DNA from: Pseudomonadota bacterium
Lineage (GTDB): Bacteria > Pseudomonadota > Gammaproteobacteria > Burkholderiales > Casimicrobiaceae
NCBI GenBank assembly: GCA_009786025.1
Contig: WQUA01000007.1
Span: 1 to 64,000, forward strand
DNA: 64,000 nucleotides
Reading direction: 5' to 3'
Within the stretch, counting starts at the first letter, position 1, and each line of letters starts with the position of its first letter. Positions 503-30,813 of the stretch are shown in pieces. The notes beneath the pieces are model-generated. The model ran no database searches and was not told the DNA's origin. It worked only from the letters and a program-made list of their open reading frames with translations. A program made the translations under genes and the position numbers.

Positions 503-842
503 CAGCGGCGCAGAATCCATGCAGCGGCGACGGGAAGCAGGTTGCTTCCCCTTGTACAAAACGCTTCTAGAGACGCAAGGGGCGGCAATCTGCCGCCCGG
601 CCTGACTTCTGACCTCTGCCGCCCCCATCCAGCCTTCCCCCGCAGGCGGGGGAAGGAACTTCAAAACCCCGCCCGCCTCCGGTGGGCATTCCCGCAAGCT
701 CCCGTCGGCTTCGCCGACACCCTCTTTGGCAAGGGGGCTTTCCTTCTTCGCGGCTTCGCGCTTTCGCGTGAGGCCAAAACGTCGCAGTTCGCGGCGCTCA
801 CCACGACCTACGCGCTGATTTCTGACCTCTGACACCCCCCAT

Positions 843-871
843 CCCGGCCTTCCCCTGCACGCGGGGGAAGG
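843..871. repeat. Palindromic repeat copy 1 (29 nt)
   Basis: cccggccttcccctgcacgcgggggaagg, identical to 903-931. Confidence 0.85.
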
Positions 872-902
872 GTCGCATGGACACAAAATCTCAGCCGAAA
901 AA

Positions 903-931
903 CCCGGCCTTCCCCTGCACGCGGGGGAAGG
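903..931. repeat. Palindromic repeat copy 2 (29 nt)
   Basis: Identical to 843-871; near-copies near 635-656, 43155-43185 and 43222-43246. Confidence 0.85.
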
Positions 932-940
932 AGCTTTTTT

Positions 941-1005
941 CTTCGCGCCTTCGCGTGAGAATTCTTTGTGCTCTTTGCGTTCTTTGCGGTGAAATCATGT
1001 TTTTG
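941..1005. repeat. Low-complexity intergenic repeat, family B (cttcgcgccttcgcgtgag...tttgtgctctttgcgttctttgcggt)
   Basis: Same word order recurs at about 20865-20910 and 46690-46745. Confidence 0.7.
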
Positions 1006-1148
1006 GTTTCCGGATGGCTGGCCTCTGACATCTGCCTTCTGACCCCGGAAGGCGCCTCATCAGCGCGAAATGGTTGCAATTTAAAGCGGAATGGTTTAAC
1101 CTAAACAACTGAGGTTTACATTTCCGATTAATATTTACGGGTAATCCC

Positions 1149-1196
1149 ATGAAGAATGCTTTTCCGTTCGTTGCGCACCATCACCATCCTGACTAG
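1149..1196 (+). CDS. hisL: his operon leader peptide MKNAFPFVAHHHHPD
   Basis: ATG AAG AAT GCT TTT CCG TTC GTT GCG CAC CAT CAC CAT CCT GAC TAG: four consecutive His codons and an HHPD ending as in enterobacterial HisL; followed by an attenuator and hisG. Confidence 0.9.
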   Translation: MKNAFPFVAHHHHPD

Positions 1197-1215
1197 TCTT
1201 TCAGGACGGTGTGTG

Positions 1216-1296
1216 CTGGAAGACATTTCGAATTCTTCCGGCGGCAACGAAACGATGAGATGATCGAAACCCCTGGAAGAATTTCCAGGGGTTTTT
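1216..1296 (+). promoter_or_regulatory. his attenuator: competing protector, antiterminator and terminator pairings
   Basis: CTGGAAGA(1216-1223)/TCTTCCGG(1234-1241); AATTCTTCC(1231-1239)/GGAAGAATT(1275-1283); terminator CCCCTGGAA(1270-1278)/TTCCAGGGG(1283-1291). Confidence 0.85.
1268..1296 (+). terminator. Intrinsic terminator of his attenuator
   Basis: aacccctggaagaatttccaggggttttt, 9 bp stem plus T tract. Confidence 0.9.
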
Positions 1297-1341
1297 GCTT
1301 TAAGGGTTTTTTGTGCGGTATTTTTGTTTCGAGGAGTTTGT

Positions 1342-2241
1342 ATGCTGGACAAAACACATTTGCGGATTGCGATTCAAAAATCGGGGCGACTGAGTCGCGA
1401 TTCGCAACAGTTGCTGGAGCGTTGCGGCGTCAAAATCAATTTCAGCGAGCAACGCTTGATCGCTTACGCTGAAAACATGCCTCTCGACTTGTTGCGAGTG
1501 CGCGACGACGATATTCCCGGGTTGGTGATGGACGGCGTCGTCGATCTCGGCATCGTTGGCGAAAATGTGCTCGAAGAAGCGCTGTTGATGCGCCGCGCCG
1601 AAGGCGGAGCGCCGTCGTACAAGTTGTTGCGTGGCCTCGACTTCGGCGGTTGCCGGCTGTCGCTGGCAGTGCCGGTCGACACACATTACGATGGTCCACA
1701 GAGTTTGCGTGATTGTCGGATCGCCACATCGTATCCGCATCTGTTGAAGCAGTATTTCGATCAGCGCGGGATCGGATACAAGCCTTGTCTGCTGACCGGT
1801 TCGGTCGAAGTGGCGCCGCGTGCCGGTTTGGCGGACGCGATTTGCGATCTGGTCTCAACCGGCGCGACGCTGGAAGCAAACGGGTTGCGCGAGGCGGAAG
1901 TGATTTATCGCTCGAAAGCGTGTCTGATTCAGCGCGACGGCGCGATGCCGGAAAGCAAACAGGCGCTGATCGACATGTTGATGGCGCGCATTCAGGGCGT
2001 GATTCAAGCGCGCGAATCGAAATACATTATGTTGCACGCGCCGGCAGACCGGCAGGAGGAGATCATCGCCATCTTGCCGGGGGCAGAGCGACCGACGGTG
2101 CTGCCGCTTGCCAACGAAAAAAACCGGGTGGCGATGCACATGGTGAGCAGCGAAACTTTGTTCTGGGAAACGATGGAAAAACTGAAGGCGCTTGGTGCCA
2201 GTTCGATTTTAGTGCTGCCGATTGAAAAGATGATGGAGTGA
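1342..2241 (+). CDS. hisG: ATP phosphoribosyltransferase
   Basis: [28 protein letters not shown]...[25 protein letters not shown]; start at internal ATG after gaggag. Confidence 0.97.
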
Positions 2242-2244
2242 TCG

Positions 2245-7839
<5,595 letters not shown>

Positions 7840-7846
<7 letters not shown>

Positions 7847-8475
7847 AGATCAAACTGGACGCGGAACAACGGGCAAAATTGGCTTGGGGGAAAGGGAGCG
7901 GAGGCGACGGCCTTCTCCCGGCGATTGTTCAACATGCAGTGTCCGGCGAAGTGCTGATGCTCGGTTTTATGAACGAAGAAGCATTGGCGGCGACCGAGGC
8001 GAGCGGACGGGTGACGTTTTATTCGCGCAGCAAAGGGAGGCTGTGGACCAAAGGCGAAACATCGAACCATTTTCTCGATGTCGTCGAAATCGCTGCCGAT
8101 TGCGATCATGATTCGTTGCTCATTCTGGCCTGGCCGGAAGGGCCGACCTGCCATCGCAACACATCGAGCTGTTTTTCGCCGACCGCCAGCCGGTTGTCGT
8201 TCTTGTATGAACTCGAACAGTTATTGGCGCAACGCAAACACGCCGACCCCGAGACGTCCTACACCGCGCGGCTTTACGCCAAAGGCACGAAGCGCATCGC
8301 ACAGAAGGTTGGTGAAGAAGGCGTTGAAACCGCGCTGGCCGCGATGGCGAACGACCGCGAAGAACTGACCAACGAAGCCGCCGATCTGGTGTATCACCTG
8401 CTGGTGCTGTTGCAGGATCAGGGATTGGATCTCGATGCCGTCGTGCGTTGTTTGAAGCAGCGGCACAAGATTTAA
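7840..8475 (+). CDS. hisI: Phosphoribosyl-AMP cyclohydrolase / phosphoribosyl-ATP pyrophosphatase fusion
   Basis: [37 protein letters not shown] (HisI) then [29 protein letters not shown] (HisE); GTG start. Confidence 0.96.
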
Positions 8476-25795: not shown

Positions 25796-25891
25796 ATGAA
25801 TAATCATTTGTCCACTTTCTCTGCTTCATTTGACGCCAACCGGGGTTGGTGGCGCTGCTCTTTTTCCGAGGGCGGGCGCCTGTACGCATAA
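25796..25891 (+). CDS. trpL: trp operon leader peptide MNNHLSTFSASFDANRGWWRCSFSEGGRLYA
   Basis: 32-codon ORF with tandem TGG TGG at 25847-25852, followed by an attenuator terminator and trpE. Confidence 0.88.
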   Translation: MNNHLSTFSASFDANRGWWRCSFSEGGRLYA

Positions 25892-25946
25892 TGAATTGTT
25901 GATTGAAGTGAACGAATGCTGAAAGCCCGCCGAGCGCGGGCTTTTT
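25851..25946 (+). promoter_or_regulatory. trp attenuator with alternative pairings
   Basis: 1:2 GGCGC(25851-25855)/GCGCC(25876-25880); antiterminator GGCGGGC(25871-25877)/GCCCGCC(25925-25931); terminator 25922-25946. Confidence 0.82.
25922..25946 (+). terminator. Intrinsic terminator of trp attenuator
   Basis: aaagcccgccgagcgcgggcttttt. Confidence 0.9.
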
Positions 25947-26018
25947 CGTGGTCTGTGCTCAAGGGGAAGAGAAAACTGAACTCCGAATGACAAGGATCAC
26001 GATGAGGACGATTGAACC

Positions 26019-27683
26019 ATGAAAACAATACAGCCCCCCAAGGCGTTGGAAAACGCGCGCGCTTCCCGGCGACCGCTGCGCAGTATCCCTGAACCGCTGG
26101 CGTTGTTCGCGTGGTTGACCGATGATGGTCGGCGACCACACACGATTCTGCTGGAATCGGCCGAACCCTCAAGTCGAAAAACGCAGAAAAGTTTGTTGGT
26201 GGTGTCGAGCGCGCTGTCGATCGAATGTCGTGGTGCTGAGGTGGTGCTGACGGCGTTGAACGCGCAGGGCGAAGTATTGTTGCCGGTGCTGGAAGAGCAT
26301 TTTGAACATTTTTCTCCGCGCTTTGAACCCTGTTCCCCCCACCTTAACCCTCCTTCGCAAGCGGGGGAGGGAACACTTAAAAACAAATTGCGCTTACACG
26401 TGCCGGTTCGCGAAACGGAAAACAAATCGGATCGGGAGCGTTTGCAGGCCGAGTCGTCGCTGACGGTGTTGCGCGAACTGACGGCGTTGTTGCGGGCGGC
26501 GTTGCCGTTGATGCCGGAAGCGGTGTTTCTCGCCGGTGTGTTCGCTTACGATCTGGTGGATCAGTTTGAGCCGTTACCGGCAACGGCGGCAGGGAGCGGG
26601 TTTCCCGATTATCTTTTTTATCTCGCCGACCAGATGGTGGTGTTTGACCATCTGACCAATTCCGGCTCTTTGTGGACATGTACTTTTACAGAATCCGATC
26701 ATGGCAAGGCGCATGAGGGCACCGAAATGGCGCTCGCCGAGATCGAAAAAAGGGTGGCTTTTTCTGCGGCGGCGCCACTGGTCAACAGTATTGCCGGGCA
26801 AGCGGCGCCGGGAGCGGTTGAAGCGGATAGAGATGACGCTGCTTTTGCGAAGCAGGTCGAGGCGTTGAAAGAACACATCGTTTGCGGCGATGTGTTTCAA
26901 ATCGTTTTGTCGCGGACGTTTTCGTTGCCGTGCAGCGATCCGTTCGCGGCGTATCGCGCACTGCGAGCATTGAATCCCAGCCCGTATTTGTTTTATATGC
27001 GCAGCAACGATTTCACATTGTTCGGCGCGTCGCCGGAGTCTGCGGTGAAAGTAGACGGAGCGACACGCGGTGTCGAAATTTCGCCGATTGCCGGAACAAG
27101 ACGGCGCGGGTTTCGTGACGACGGTAGCCTTGACGCCGATCTCGATGGTCGGATCGAAGCCGAATTGCGCCTTGATGAAAAAGAGAACGCCGAACACATG
27201 ATGCTGGTCGATCTGGCGCGAAACGACGTGGCGCGCGTGTCCAAATCCGGGACGCGCCATGTTGCCGAGTTGTTGCGTACTGTGCGCTATTCGCACGTGA
27301 TGCATCTGGTGTCACGCGTCTGCGGCGAATTGAAAGACGAACTTGATGCGCTGCATGCTTATCAGGCGAGTATGAACATGGGAACGCTGACCGGCGCGCC
27401 GAAGATCAAAGCGATGCAGTTGCTGCGTCGTTATGAAGGCGGGCGGCGCGGTCATTACGGTGGCGCGATCGGTTATCTTCGTGGCGATGGCAGTTTCGAT
27501 ACGGCGATTGTGATTCGAGCGGCGCTGGTGCAAAACGGTGTTGCGCACGTGCGCGCTGGCGCTGGCGTCGTGCACGATTCGGTGCCACTGCTGGAAGCGG
27601 ATGAAACGCGGCGCAAAGCTGAGGCGGTGTTGCGGGCCATTGCAATATCGGAAACTGAGTCAGAAGCGGGGAGAGCGTCATGA
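26019..27683 (+). CDS. trpE: Anthranilate synthase component I
   Basis: NPSPYLFYMRSNDFTLFGASPES; HLVSRVCGELKDELDALHAYQASMNMGTLTGAPKIKAMQL. Confidence 0.96.
   Translation: MKTIQPPKALENARASRRPLRSIPEPLALFAWLTDDGRRPHTILLESAEPSSRKTQKSLLVVSSALSIECRGAEVVLTALNAQGEVLLPVLEEHFEHFSPRFEPCSPHLNPPSQAGEGTLKNKLRLHVPVRETENKSDRERLQAESSLTVLRELTALLRAALPLMPEAVFLAGVFAYDLVDQFEPLPATAAGSGFPDYLFYLADQMVVFDHLTNSGSLWTCTFTESDHGKAHEGTEMALAEIEKRVAFSAAAPLVNSIAGQAAPGAVEADRDDAAFAKQVEALKEHIVCGDVFQIVLSRTFSLPCSDPFAAYRALRALNPSPYLFYMRSNDFTLFGASPESAVKVDGATRGVEISPIAGTRRRGFRDDGSLDADLDGRIEAELRLDEKENAEHMMLVDLARNDVARVSKSGTRHVAELLRTVRYSHVMHLVSRVCGELKDELDALHAYQASMNMGTLTGAPKIKAMQLLRRYEGGRRGHYGGAIGYLRGDGSFDTAIVIRAALVQNGVAHVRAGAGVVHDSVPLLEADETRRKAEAVLRAIAISETESEAGRAS
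26335..26372. repeat. Family A palindromic repeat embedded in trpE coding sequence
   Basis: ccccccaccttaaccctccttcgcaagcgggggaggga; 32/38 identity to the reverse complement of 465-502; encodes part of PHLNPPSQAGEGT. Confidence 0.8.
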
Positions 27684-28385: not shown

Positions 28386-29438
28386 ATGATGGATCGTATT
28401 TTGAGCAAGTTGTTGACGGGCGGCCGCCTGGATCGCGAGGAAAGCCGTGCGCTGTTCGACGCGGTGATTCGCGGCGAGGTCGGCGATGTGGAGATCGCTG
28501 CGTTGTTGGTAGCGTTGAAATTACGCGGCGAAACCGCCGAAGAAATCGCCGGTGCGGCACAAGCCTTGCGTGAGGGCGCGCGCGAATTTCCGCGGCCTGA
28601 CTATCGCTTTGCCGATATTGTGGGCACCGGCGGCGATGGCGCCGGCACCATCAACATTTCAACTGCCGCCAGTTTTGTGGCGGCGGAGGCAGGGCTGCCG
28701 GTAGCCAAGCACGGCAACCGCGCGGCGTCGTCGCGTTGCGGCGCAGCCGATTTGCTTGAACGCTTCGGTGTCAAGCTCGACATGGAACCGGCAACGGCGC
28801 GGCGCTTGCTCGACGATATCGGCGTTACGTTTTTGTATGCGCCGCATTACCATAAAGGGATTCGACACGCGATGCCGGTTCGCAAAGCGCTGGCGACGCG
28901 AACGATGTTCAACCTGCTGGGGCCGTTGGTGAATCCCGCGCGCCCGCCGGTCATGTTGGTTGGCGTTTATGATTACACTTTGTGCACGCTGGTGGCGGAG
29001 ACGCTGAGGCTGCTGGGTTGTGATCGCGCATTGGTGGTGAATGGCTTGGGTCTCGACGAAATTGCGGTGCACGGCGAAACCAACGCTGCCGAGCTGCATG
29101 AGGACGGCGAGATTACGACACATCATTTCACGCCACTCGATTTCGGTGTGCGCAAATTTCCATTGTCGTCGATTGTCGGCGGTGCGCCGGAAGAGAATGA
29201 GCAGGCGATTCGCCTGGTGTTGGGCGGCGGCGGCGATGAGGCGCATGCAGCAGCGATCGCCGTCAACGCCGGGGCATTGCTGGCGTTGGGTGGGCAAGTC
29301 GATTCGTTCAAGCAGGGATTTGCGCTGGCGATGAGCATTCTGGAAAGCGGCAGGGCGCTTGCGCGGTTGGAGGCGATGGCGCGGTTATCACATCAGTTGG
29401 GCGAAGCGGGCGGGGACACTCATGTCAGTGCTCGCTGA
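28386..29438 (+). CDS. trpD: Anthranilate phosphoribosyltransferase
   Basis: DIVGTGGDGAGTINISTAASFVAA; KHGNRAASSRCGAADLLE. Confidence 0.96.
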   Translation: MMDRILSKLLTGGRLDREESRALFDAVIRGEVGDVEIAALLVALKLRGETAEEIAGAAQALREGAREFPRPDYRFADIVGTGGDGAGTINISTAASFVAAEAGLPVAKHGNRAASSRCGAADLLERFGVKLDMEPATARRLLDDIGVTFLYAPHYHKGIRHAMPVRKALATRTMFNLLGPLVNPARPPVMLVGVYDYTLCTLVAETLRLLGCDRALVVNGLGLDEIAVHGETNAAELHEDGEITTHHFTPLDFGVRKFPLSSIVGGAPEENEQAIRLVLGGGGDEAHAAAIAVNAGALLALGGQVDSFKQGFALAMSILESGRALARLEAMARLSHQLGEAGGDTHVSAR

Positions 29439-30813
29439 AATCGTTGCACGCAAGCGTCAGGACGTTGCGGGGCGTATGGCGAAAACGCCGCTGGTCGTTC
29501 TGGAAAAACAGGCGAAGCCGACAACGCGGCGACTGGCCGAATCGCTACGCCAGCCGGGATTGCGTTTTATTCTCGAATGCAAGAAAGCGTCACCCTCGGA
29601 AGGTTTGATCCGTTCTGATTTCGATGTAAAAAAAATCGCGGAAACCTATCGCGGATTTGCCGATGCGGTTTCGGTGTTGACCGATGCGCCATACTTTCAA
29701 GGCAGTTTTGCCGATCTTGAAAAAGTGCGTGCCACGTTACCGCAACCGATACTGTGCAAAGATTTCGTTGTCGAACCGTATCAGGTGTTTGAAGCGCGCA
29801 TTCATGGCGCCGATGCAGTGTTGCTGATGTTGTCGGTCCTCGATGATGCGATGTACCGGCGCTGTTCGGAAGCGGCGCGGATGTTGTCGATGGATGTGTT
29901 GACGGAAGTGCACGACGACGAGGAACTGAGCAGAGCGCTGGCGCTTGATGCACGCATTGTCGGCATCAACAATCGCGATTTGAAAACGATGAAGATCAAT
30001 CTGTCAACGACTCGAAATCTGGCGCCGAAAATTCCGGGCGATCGTGTGATCGTGAGCGAATCCGGAATCAAAGGTCGCGCCGATATTGATGATCTCAGCG
30101 ATTTTGTCGATGCTTTTCTCGTTGGCAGCCGCTTGATGAAAGAAGCGCGACTCGATTCTGCCGTACGCGCGCTTGTTTTCGGACGCGTTAAAATTTGCGG
30201 GATGACGACGCCTGACGCGGCGCGCATCGCTTATGAGGCAGGCGCTTCGTGGGGGGGGATGATTTTTGCGCCAGAATCGCCGCGCTGTGTGAATGAAACC
30301 GTGGCGCGTGAAATCGTTGCTGCATCACCGTTACCGCTGGTCGGCGTTTTCGTCAACGACGCTCCGGAGAAGATCACGCGGTTGGTACGAGAATTGCGAT
30401 TGGCGGCGATTCAGTTGCACGGCGAAGAAACATCAGCTTATATTCACAAGCTGCGGCACGAACTTCCTGCCGGGTGCGAAATCTGGAAAGCCGTGCGTAT
30501 TGGTGAATCGCTGCCGCAGGTAGAGACGTTGCTGGTGGAAATGGGAGCCGATCGTCTGTTGCTCGACACCTATGATTCGTCGGCGCGCGGCGGCACCGGT
30601 GGGCGCTTCAATTGGGCGTTGCTGGAGCGGTTGCCGGAATCGCTACTGTCTCGTATTATCATTGCCGGCGGCATCTCGCCGGAGAATGTGCGCACGGCGC
30701 ATGGCGTCGGAAGCTATGCGATGGATGTCAATTCCGGCGTCGAGTCGGCGCCGGGGAAGAAAGACCCGGCGGCGGTGCAACGGTTGTTTTCTCGTTTGAG
30801 AGGATGTTTATGA
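29422..30813 (+). CDS. trpC: Indole-3-glycerol-phosphate synthase / phosphoribosylanthranilate isomerase fusion
   Basis: Trp[35 protein letters not shown]; Trp[28 protein letters not shown]; one continuous ORF. Confidence 0.95.

Follow-up and report, generated by a model that had tools for sequence, protein, structure and literature searches.

The window (the whole 64,000-nucleotide stretch of DNA analysed) carries, near its start, a histidine biosynthesis operon of eight genes on the forward strand: hisG (1342-2241, the long form with a C-terminal regulatory domain; TIGR00070, TIGR03455), hisD (2245-3582; TIGR00069), hisC (3579-4658; TIGR01141), hisNB, encoding a bifunctional phosphatase/dehydratase (4652-5719; NF003937, 603 bits for a cut-off of 443), hisH (5716-6342; TIGR01855), hisA (6339-7076; TIGR00007), hisF (7055-7846; TIGR00735) and the bifunctional hisIE (7840-8475; NF002747). 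A Shine-Dalgarno-like GAGGAG (1331-1336) lies ahead of the hisG start at 1342. The probable his promoter, of the sigma-70 type, was located on the same strand at 1074-1102 (TTGCAA at 1074-1079, a 17-nt spacer ending in GGTT, and TAACCT at 1097-1102). A generic sigma-70 promoter scan found nothing, and the promoter was recognised only by comparison with relatives: TTGCnn-16/17-TAnnnT recurred in eight members of the genus, 97-125 nt ahead of the stop codon of the leader, and the pattern of the Enterobacterales his promoters, which it matches, was TTGCnn-17/18-TAnnnT at a similar distance (TTGCTT-18-TAGGTT in E. coli).

Between promoter and hisG, the initial annotation had proposed a complete his attenuator, and all of its elements were found on re-reading the sequence at the positions given there. 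The leader open reading frame, hisL (1149-1196, forward strand; MKNAFPFVAHHHHPD, stop codon at 1194-1196), putatively encodes a previously uncalled 15-aa peptide with four consecutive His codons (CAC CAT CAC CAT, 1176-1187); its ribosome-binding site is weak (GGG just before 1142). Arm A (1182-1192), which overlaps the end of this frame at the last His and the Pro-Asp codons, pairs with arm B (1201-1211), forming the hairpin with one mismatch over the His codons. It is followed by the protector hairpin, formed by arms C (1214-1223) and D (1234-1243), and by the intrinsic terminator ahead of hisG, formed by arms E (1268-1278) and F (1283-1293) with a T tract at 1292-1296. All arms, placed by helix analysis, are on the forward strand; A and B are supported by the Rfam alignment and by helix pairing across leaders, C, D and E by helix pairing across leaders, and the F arm with its T tract (1283-1296) by both together with the sequence. 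Two alternative pairings make up the antiterminator: D with E (1231-1244/1271-1283), which contains the 9-bp helix noted initially (AATTCTTCC, 1231-1239, and GGAAGAATT, 1275-1283), and B with C (1197-1204/1216-1223), its second half, which had been absent from the initial annotation.

The two computational checks proposed with that annotation, a covariance search with the Rfam His_leader model and RNA folding, were both run. Against the 64-kb window, RF00514 was matched in full at 1172-1301 with 79.2 bits (cut-off 49 bits; E 6.7e-11), and the minimum free energy of the leader RNA was -65 kcal/mol (z -5.25), a value that none of 200 shuffled sequences reached. With arm A blocked and the transcript ending at 1283, the lowest-energy fold consisted of the two antiterminator pairings, B:C (1197-1204/1216-1223) and D:E (1231-1244/1271-1283), and the E. 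coli leader folded into the same pair of helices under the same treatment. The proposed likeness to the enterobacterial leader was thus supported both by the Rfam model and by the E. coli control.

Equilibrium folding was uninformative about the termination decision once arm F (the E:F stem has -18.2 kcal/mol) was present: the terminator then always formed, in the window and in the E. coli leader alike, which shares this limitation. For RNA ending before arm F, equilibrium still favoured D:E even with the ribosome placed at the stop codon. Since the terminator always wins at equilibrium with F, and D:E without it, the choice must be made kinetically, a well-established property of ribosome-mediated attenuators. 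During a shortage of charged His-tRNA, the ribosome would stall on the His codons (1176-1187) and cover arm A, so that B:C and D:E would pair, E:F would be blocked and RNA polymerase would enter hisG. With His-tRNA in good supply, the ribosome would reach the stop codon (1194-1196) and, with a presumed footprint to about 1206, cover A and much of B; C:D and E:F would then form and transcription would stop near 1296. By its sequence and predicted folding, the leader is a classical ribosome-mediated attenuator and a member of the known RF00514 family; promoter activity, leader translation, stalling, termination and the response to histidine are what we infer from these features.

The leader recurred throughout the genus. 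RF00514 was matched in ten of its eleven genomes (52-84 bits); the remaining one, G006, retains no more than the terminator portion, as its contig breaks off shortly before hisG. Every member with sequence in this region had three or four consecutive His codons directly before the peptide end. The peptides otherwise varied (MKNTLPFVAHHHHPD, MNILSFFAHHHHPE and MFFLTHHHHPFE, among others), while the His run, the stop codon and the spacing were kept and CAC/CAT changes were synonymous. Helix statistics were obtained from 21 leaders (ten from the genus and 11 from Enterobacterales), in which all five helices were about 91-99% paired: A:B 93.4%, C:D 99.0%, E:F 99.6% (four pairs changed on both sides), B:C 99.4% and D:E 90.9%. 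All three hairpins, and D:E as well, showed compensatory changes; B:C was nearly invariant, so that the alignment agrees with this pairing but does not prove it by covariation. Taken as a whole, the terminated structure had 97.5% of cells paired, with both-side changes in six pairs (shuffle mean 2.5) and a covariation score of 0.192 (0.133 in shuffles), and in the antiterminator structure pairing held in 94.7% of cells, column pair 66:115 being AU in some leaders and UA in others. The covariance match, the conservation, the compensatory changes and the folding together support the proposed HisL peptide and its attenuator.

These data also bear on whether the leader might be a decaying, non-functional relic, with hisG driven by a different promoter or reached through constitutive read-through. 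Its shorter His run (three or four codons, compared with mostly six or seven in Enterobacterales leaders) and its weak ribosome-binding site would fit such a relic, which would nevertheless have lost the compensatory pattern; and the promoter, His run, stop position, five helices and T tract were all kept among genus members whose HisD proteins differed by up to a third. We regard decay as quite unlikely and the leader as probably a working attenuator.

In one genus member (L131, from G003), a GTGCGGTTTTTT-like unit was repeated in tandem about ten times between the his terminator and hisG, an arrangement seen in this member only.

The host is a genus of Burkholderiales, an order placed by NCBI in the Betaproteobacteria, and not an enterobacterium; its assemblies are drafts, and metagenome bins where named. 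The distribution of the operon was examined in 60 genomes: 11 of the genus, 25 of other genera of the family and 24 of other families. RF00514 was found in none of the 25 and none of the 24, and among 399 genomes of the order its cut-off was passed by members of the genus only. Sub-threshold matches at three other loci of the order (L091, L092 and L094) had no adjacent hisG and were dropped. HisNB passed its cut-off in ten of the 11 genus genomes (in the remaining one, G007, the contig ends inside hisC) and in none of the 49 others. The opposite was seen for HisZ, the partner of the short form of HisG, for which 48 of those 49 genomes gave a full-strength match (237-303 bits); no genus genome did, and the weaker match found there (158 bits at most), common to nearly all genomes, is presumably HisS. 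Each genus genome had one HisD. The native his genes typical of the order have therefore been displaced in the genus. For comparison, a 2007 survey reported both HisNB and HisIE in 0% of 39 betaproteobacteria (PMC1963479).

The His proteins themselves were of enterobacterial type. Those of the window were more similar to Enterobacterales than to the other genera of the family and order in the case of HisG (78-82% vs. 32-37% identity), HisD (62-69% vs. 44-47%) and HisNB (mostly 67-73% vs. 44-50%). In a concatenated tree of the eight His proteins, ten genus members formed one clade (support 100) that joined 28 Enterobacterales (100), with other gammaproteobacteria outside, and the genus operon was sister to all the Enterobacterales sampled. 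The HisD tree agreed, and grouping with the betaproteobacteria was rejected (p-AU 0.009). The named relatives were metagenome bins, two of Burkholderiales (JAITMR010000035 and JAIRPA010000100) and one with the label Proteobacteria (WQTW01000076), and after them came Serratia, Rahnella, Yersinia and other Enterobacterales; no donor closer than the Enterobacterales was found among the loci examined. The codes of these bins look like those used in studies of termite guts. A termite-associated clade of Rhodocyclaceae has been described (PMC10281810).

Such similarity would also be expected if the attenuator were real and the contig a misbinned piece of an enterobacterium, with no transfer involved. 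The assembly of the window (G000) has an estimated contamination of 8.48%, and the whole operon sits in the initial 8.5 kb of its contig. It was also present, however, in the ten other genus genomes, whose estimated contamination is low (1-2%), and LigA, encoded on the same contig (34915-37032, reverse strand), fell among the sequences of the order and away from those of gammaproteobacteria (100/99). Genes for a DUF192 protein, an M50 protease, TrpS, ScpA and ScpB followed the operon in the window, G001 and G002, as did those from DUF192 to ScpA in G004, and the His proteins formed a clade of their own, separate from all the named enterobacteria in the sample. That the operon stems from contamination was rejected on its recurrence in the genus, the LigA tree and the shared neighbours, and misbinning is very unlikely.

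Independent origin of the leader within the genus, by convergence and not from an enterobacterial leader, would have a possible parallel in other phyla, where short leaders rich in His may have originated more than once (PMC2965389). Here, primary sequence identity with Enterobacterales around TAGTCTTTCAGG, CTGGAAGAC and the promoter, and a tree of the downstream genes that joins the genus with the same group, speak against it; the homology of both leader and genes refutes convergence in this case and makes it extremely improbable.

Given the HisG identity, the sister position of the operon, the loss of HisZ and the enterobacterial-like promoter, it is most likely that the eight genes came in together with their promoter and attenuator, as a single unit. 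A classical his attenuator was thus, very probably, acquired together with its promoter and the eight his genes by an ancestor of this Burkholderiales genus from an Enterobacterales-like donor.

Two features of the genus itself were recorded alongside these comparisons. In the LigA tree, unlike the His tree, the genus was split, inside the order, between two separate clades (the window, G002 and G004 in one, G005, G008 and G009 in the other). The context of the his operon also differed between two subclades of the genus (loci L123-L132), which nevertheless made up a single clade in the His tree: DUF192, M50 protease and TrpS genes lay downstream of the operon in the first, and gyrA, serC and a phosphatase gene, read by eye, lay upstream of it in the other. 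The differing neighbourhoods suggest that the operon was later moved or exchanged within the genus.

Compared with the enterobacterial his attenuator (hisL of E. coli and Salmonella; RF00514), the genus leader has the same HHPD/E peptide ending, promoter layout, arms A-F, antiterminator pairings and terminator, followed by the same hisGDCBHAFI gene order. It differs in its shorter run of His codons (three or four, not mostly six or seven), in the start of the peptide (MKNxxPFVA in the genus, MTRVQFK/N in Enterobacterales) and in the sequence of the terminator stem. Gamma-type hisNB operons have been transferred to Campylobacter and the CFB group (PMC1963479), complete and outside the gammaproteobacteria as here; unlike those cases, the genus retained the attenuator and promoter as well. 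Operons that moved together with a cis-acting RNA, as probably in the genus, have been described for a lysine riboswitch in Thermotogales (PMC3766115) and a his attenuator in Lutispora (PMC9413887), which represent another RNA class or another phylum. For attenuators of amino acid operons that arose in gammaproteobacteria, "very few" cases of transfer have been reported (PMC3766115), and our literature search found no paper describing the his operon of this genus.

The RNA element alone is a textbook attenuator already known; the novelty lies in the host that carries it and in the fact that a complete regulated unit was apparently transferred. The locus offers a clean case in which a promoter, an attenuator and an eight-gene operon would have crossed classes as one regulated unit and displaced the native pathway, with the sister genera as a natural control. 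Since an attenuator requires nothing of its host beyond the ribosome, RNA polymerase and charged tRNA, the case supports the portability of such operons.

A second possible instance lies in the same window. A trp attenuator candidate was seen at 25796-25949 (forward strand), upstream of trpE at 26019. The Rfam Trp_leader model matched 25841-25949 of the same strand with 38.8 bits, under its cut-off of 41 (E 1.1e-6 for a 331-base stretch), and a leader open reading frame (25796-25891; 31 aa, MNNHLSTFSASFDANRGWWRCSFSEGGRLYA) carried Trp-Trp. All 11 genus genomes had a Trp_leader match (34-43 bits, three above the cut-off), compared with weak matches in only one of 30 other genomes, which belonged to another family; no other genus of the window's family that was searched had the match. 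In ten genus genomes the leader peptides ahead of trpE had two or three Trp codons in a row, and no trpE was found on the stretch examined in the eleventh (G008). A search with Thr_leader (RF00506) gave no match above the cut-off in ten genus genomes, and there is thus no sign that the genus acquired every enterobacterial attenuator.

The window also encodes a fused trpCF (IGPS and PRAI; 29359-30813, forward strand), as in Enterobacterales, to whose proteins the product was 46-50% identical; TrpC and TrpF were separate in the other Burkholderiales searched. A second, distant and unfused TrpC/TrpF pair (33% and 30% identity) was encoded in G000 on contig C1 (44661-45949) and was not seen in four other genus genomes searched; it may stem from the 8.5% contamination or represent a second pathway. 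Xie et al. 2004, as cited in PMC1173090, deals with the lateral transfer of trp operons. We hold it an even chance that this betaproteobacterial genus of small genomes (about 2 Mb) replaced native, differently regulated amino acid pathways by complete gamma-type operons with self-sufficient ribosome-mediated attenuators, a replacement seen for his and probable for trp. If so, regulation without a trans-acting regulator would have made the displacement of whole operons easy.

One further locus of the order, from a genome of another family (L093 in G181; 519-1644, reverse strand), encoded a long gamma-type HisG (73% identical to that of E. coli and 32-35% to those of betaproteobacteria). Ahead of this gene lay a His_leader match below the cut-off and a peptide that ends in RRHHHHT, and the locus perhaps represents an independent transfer.
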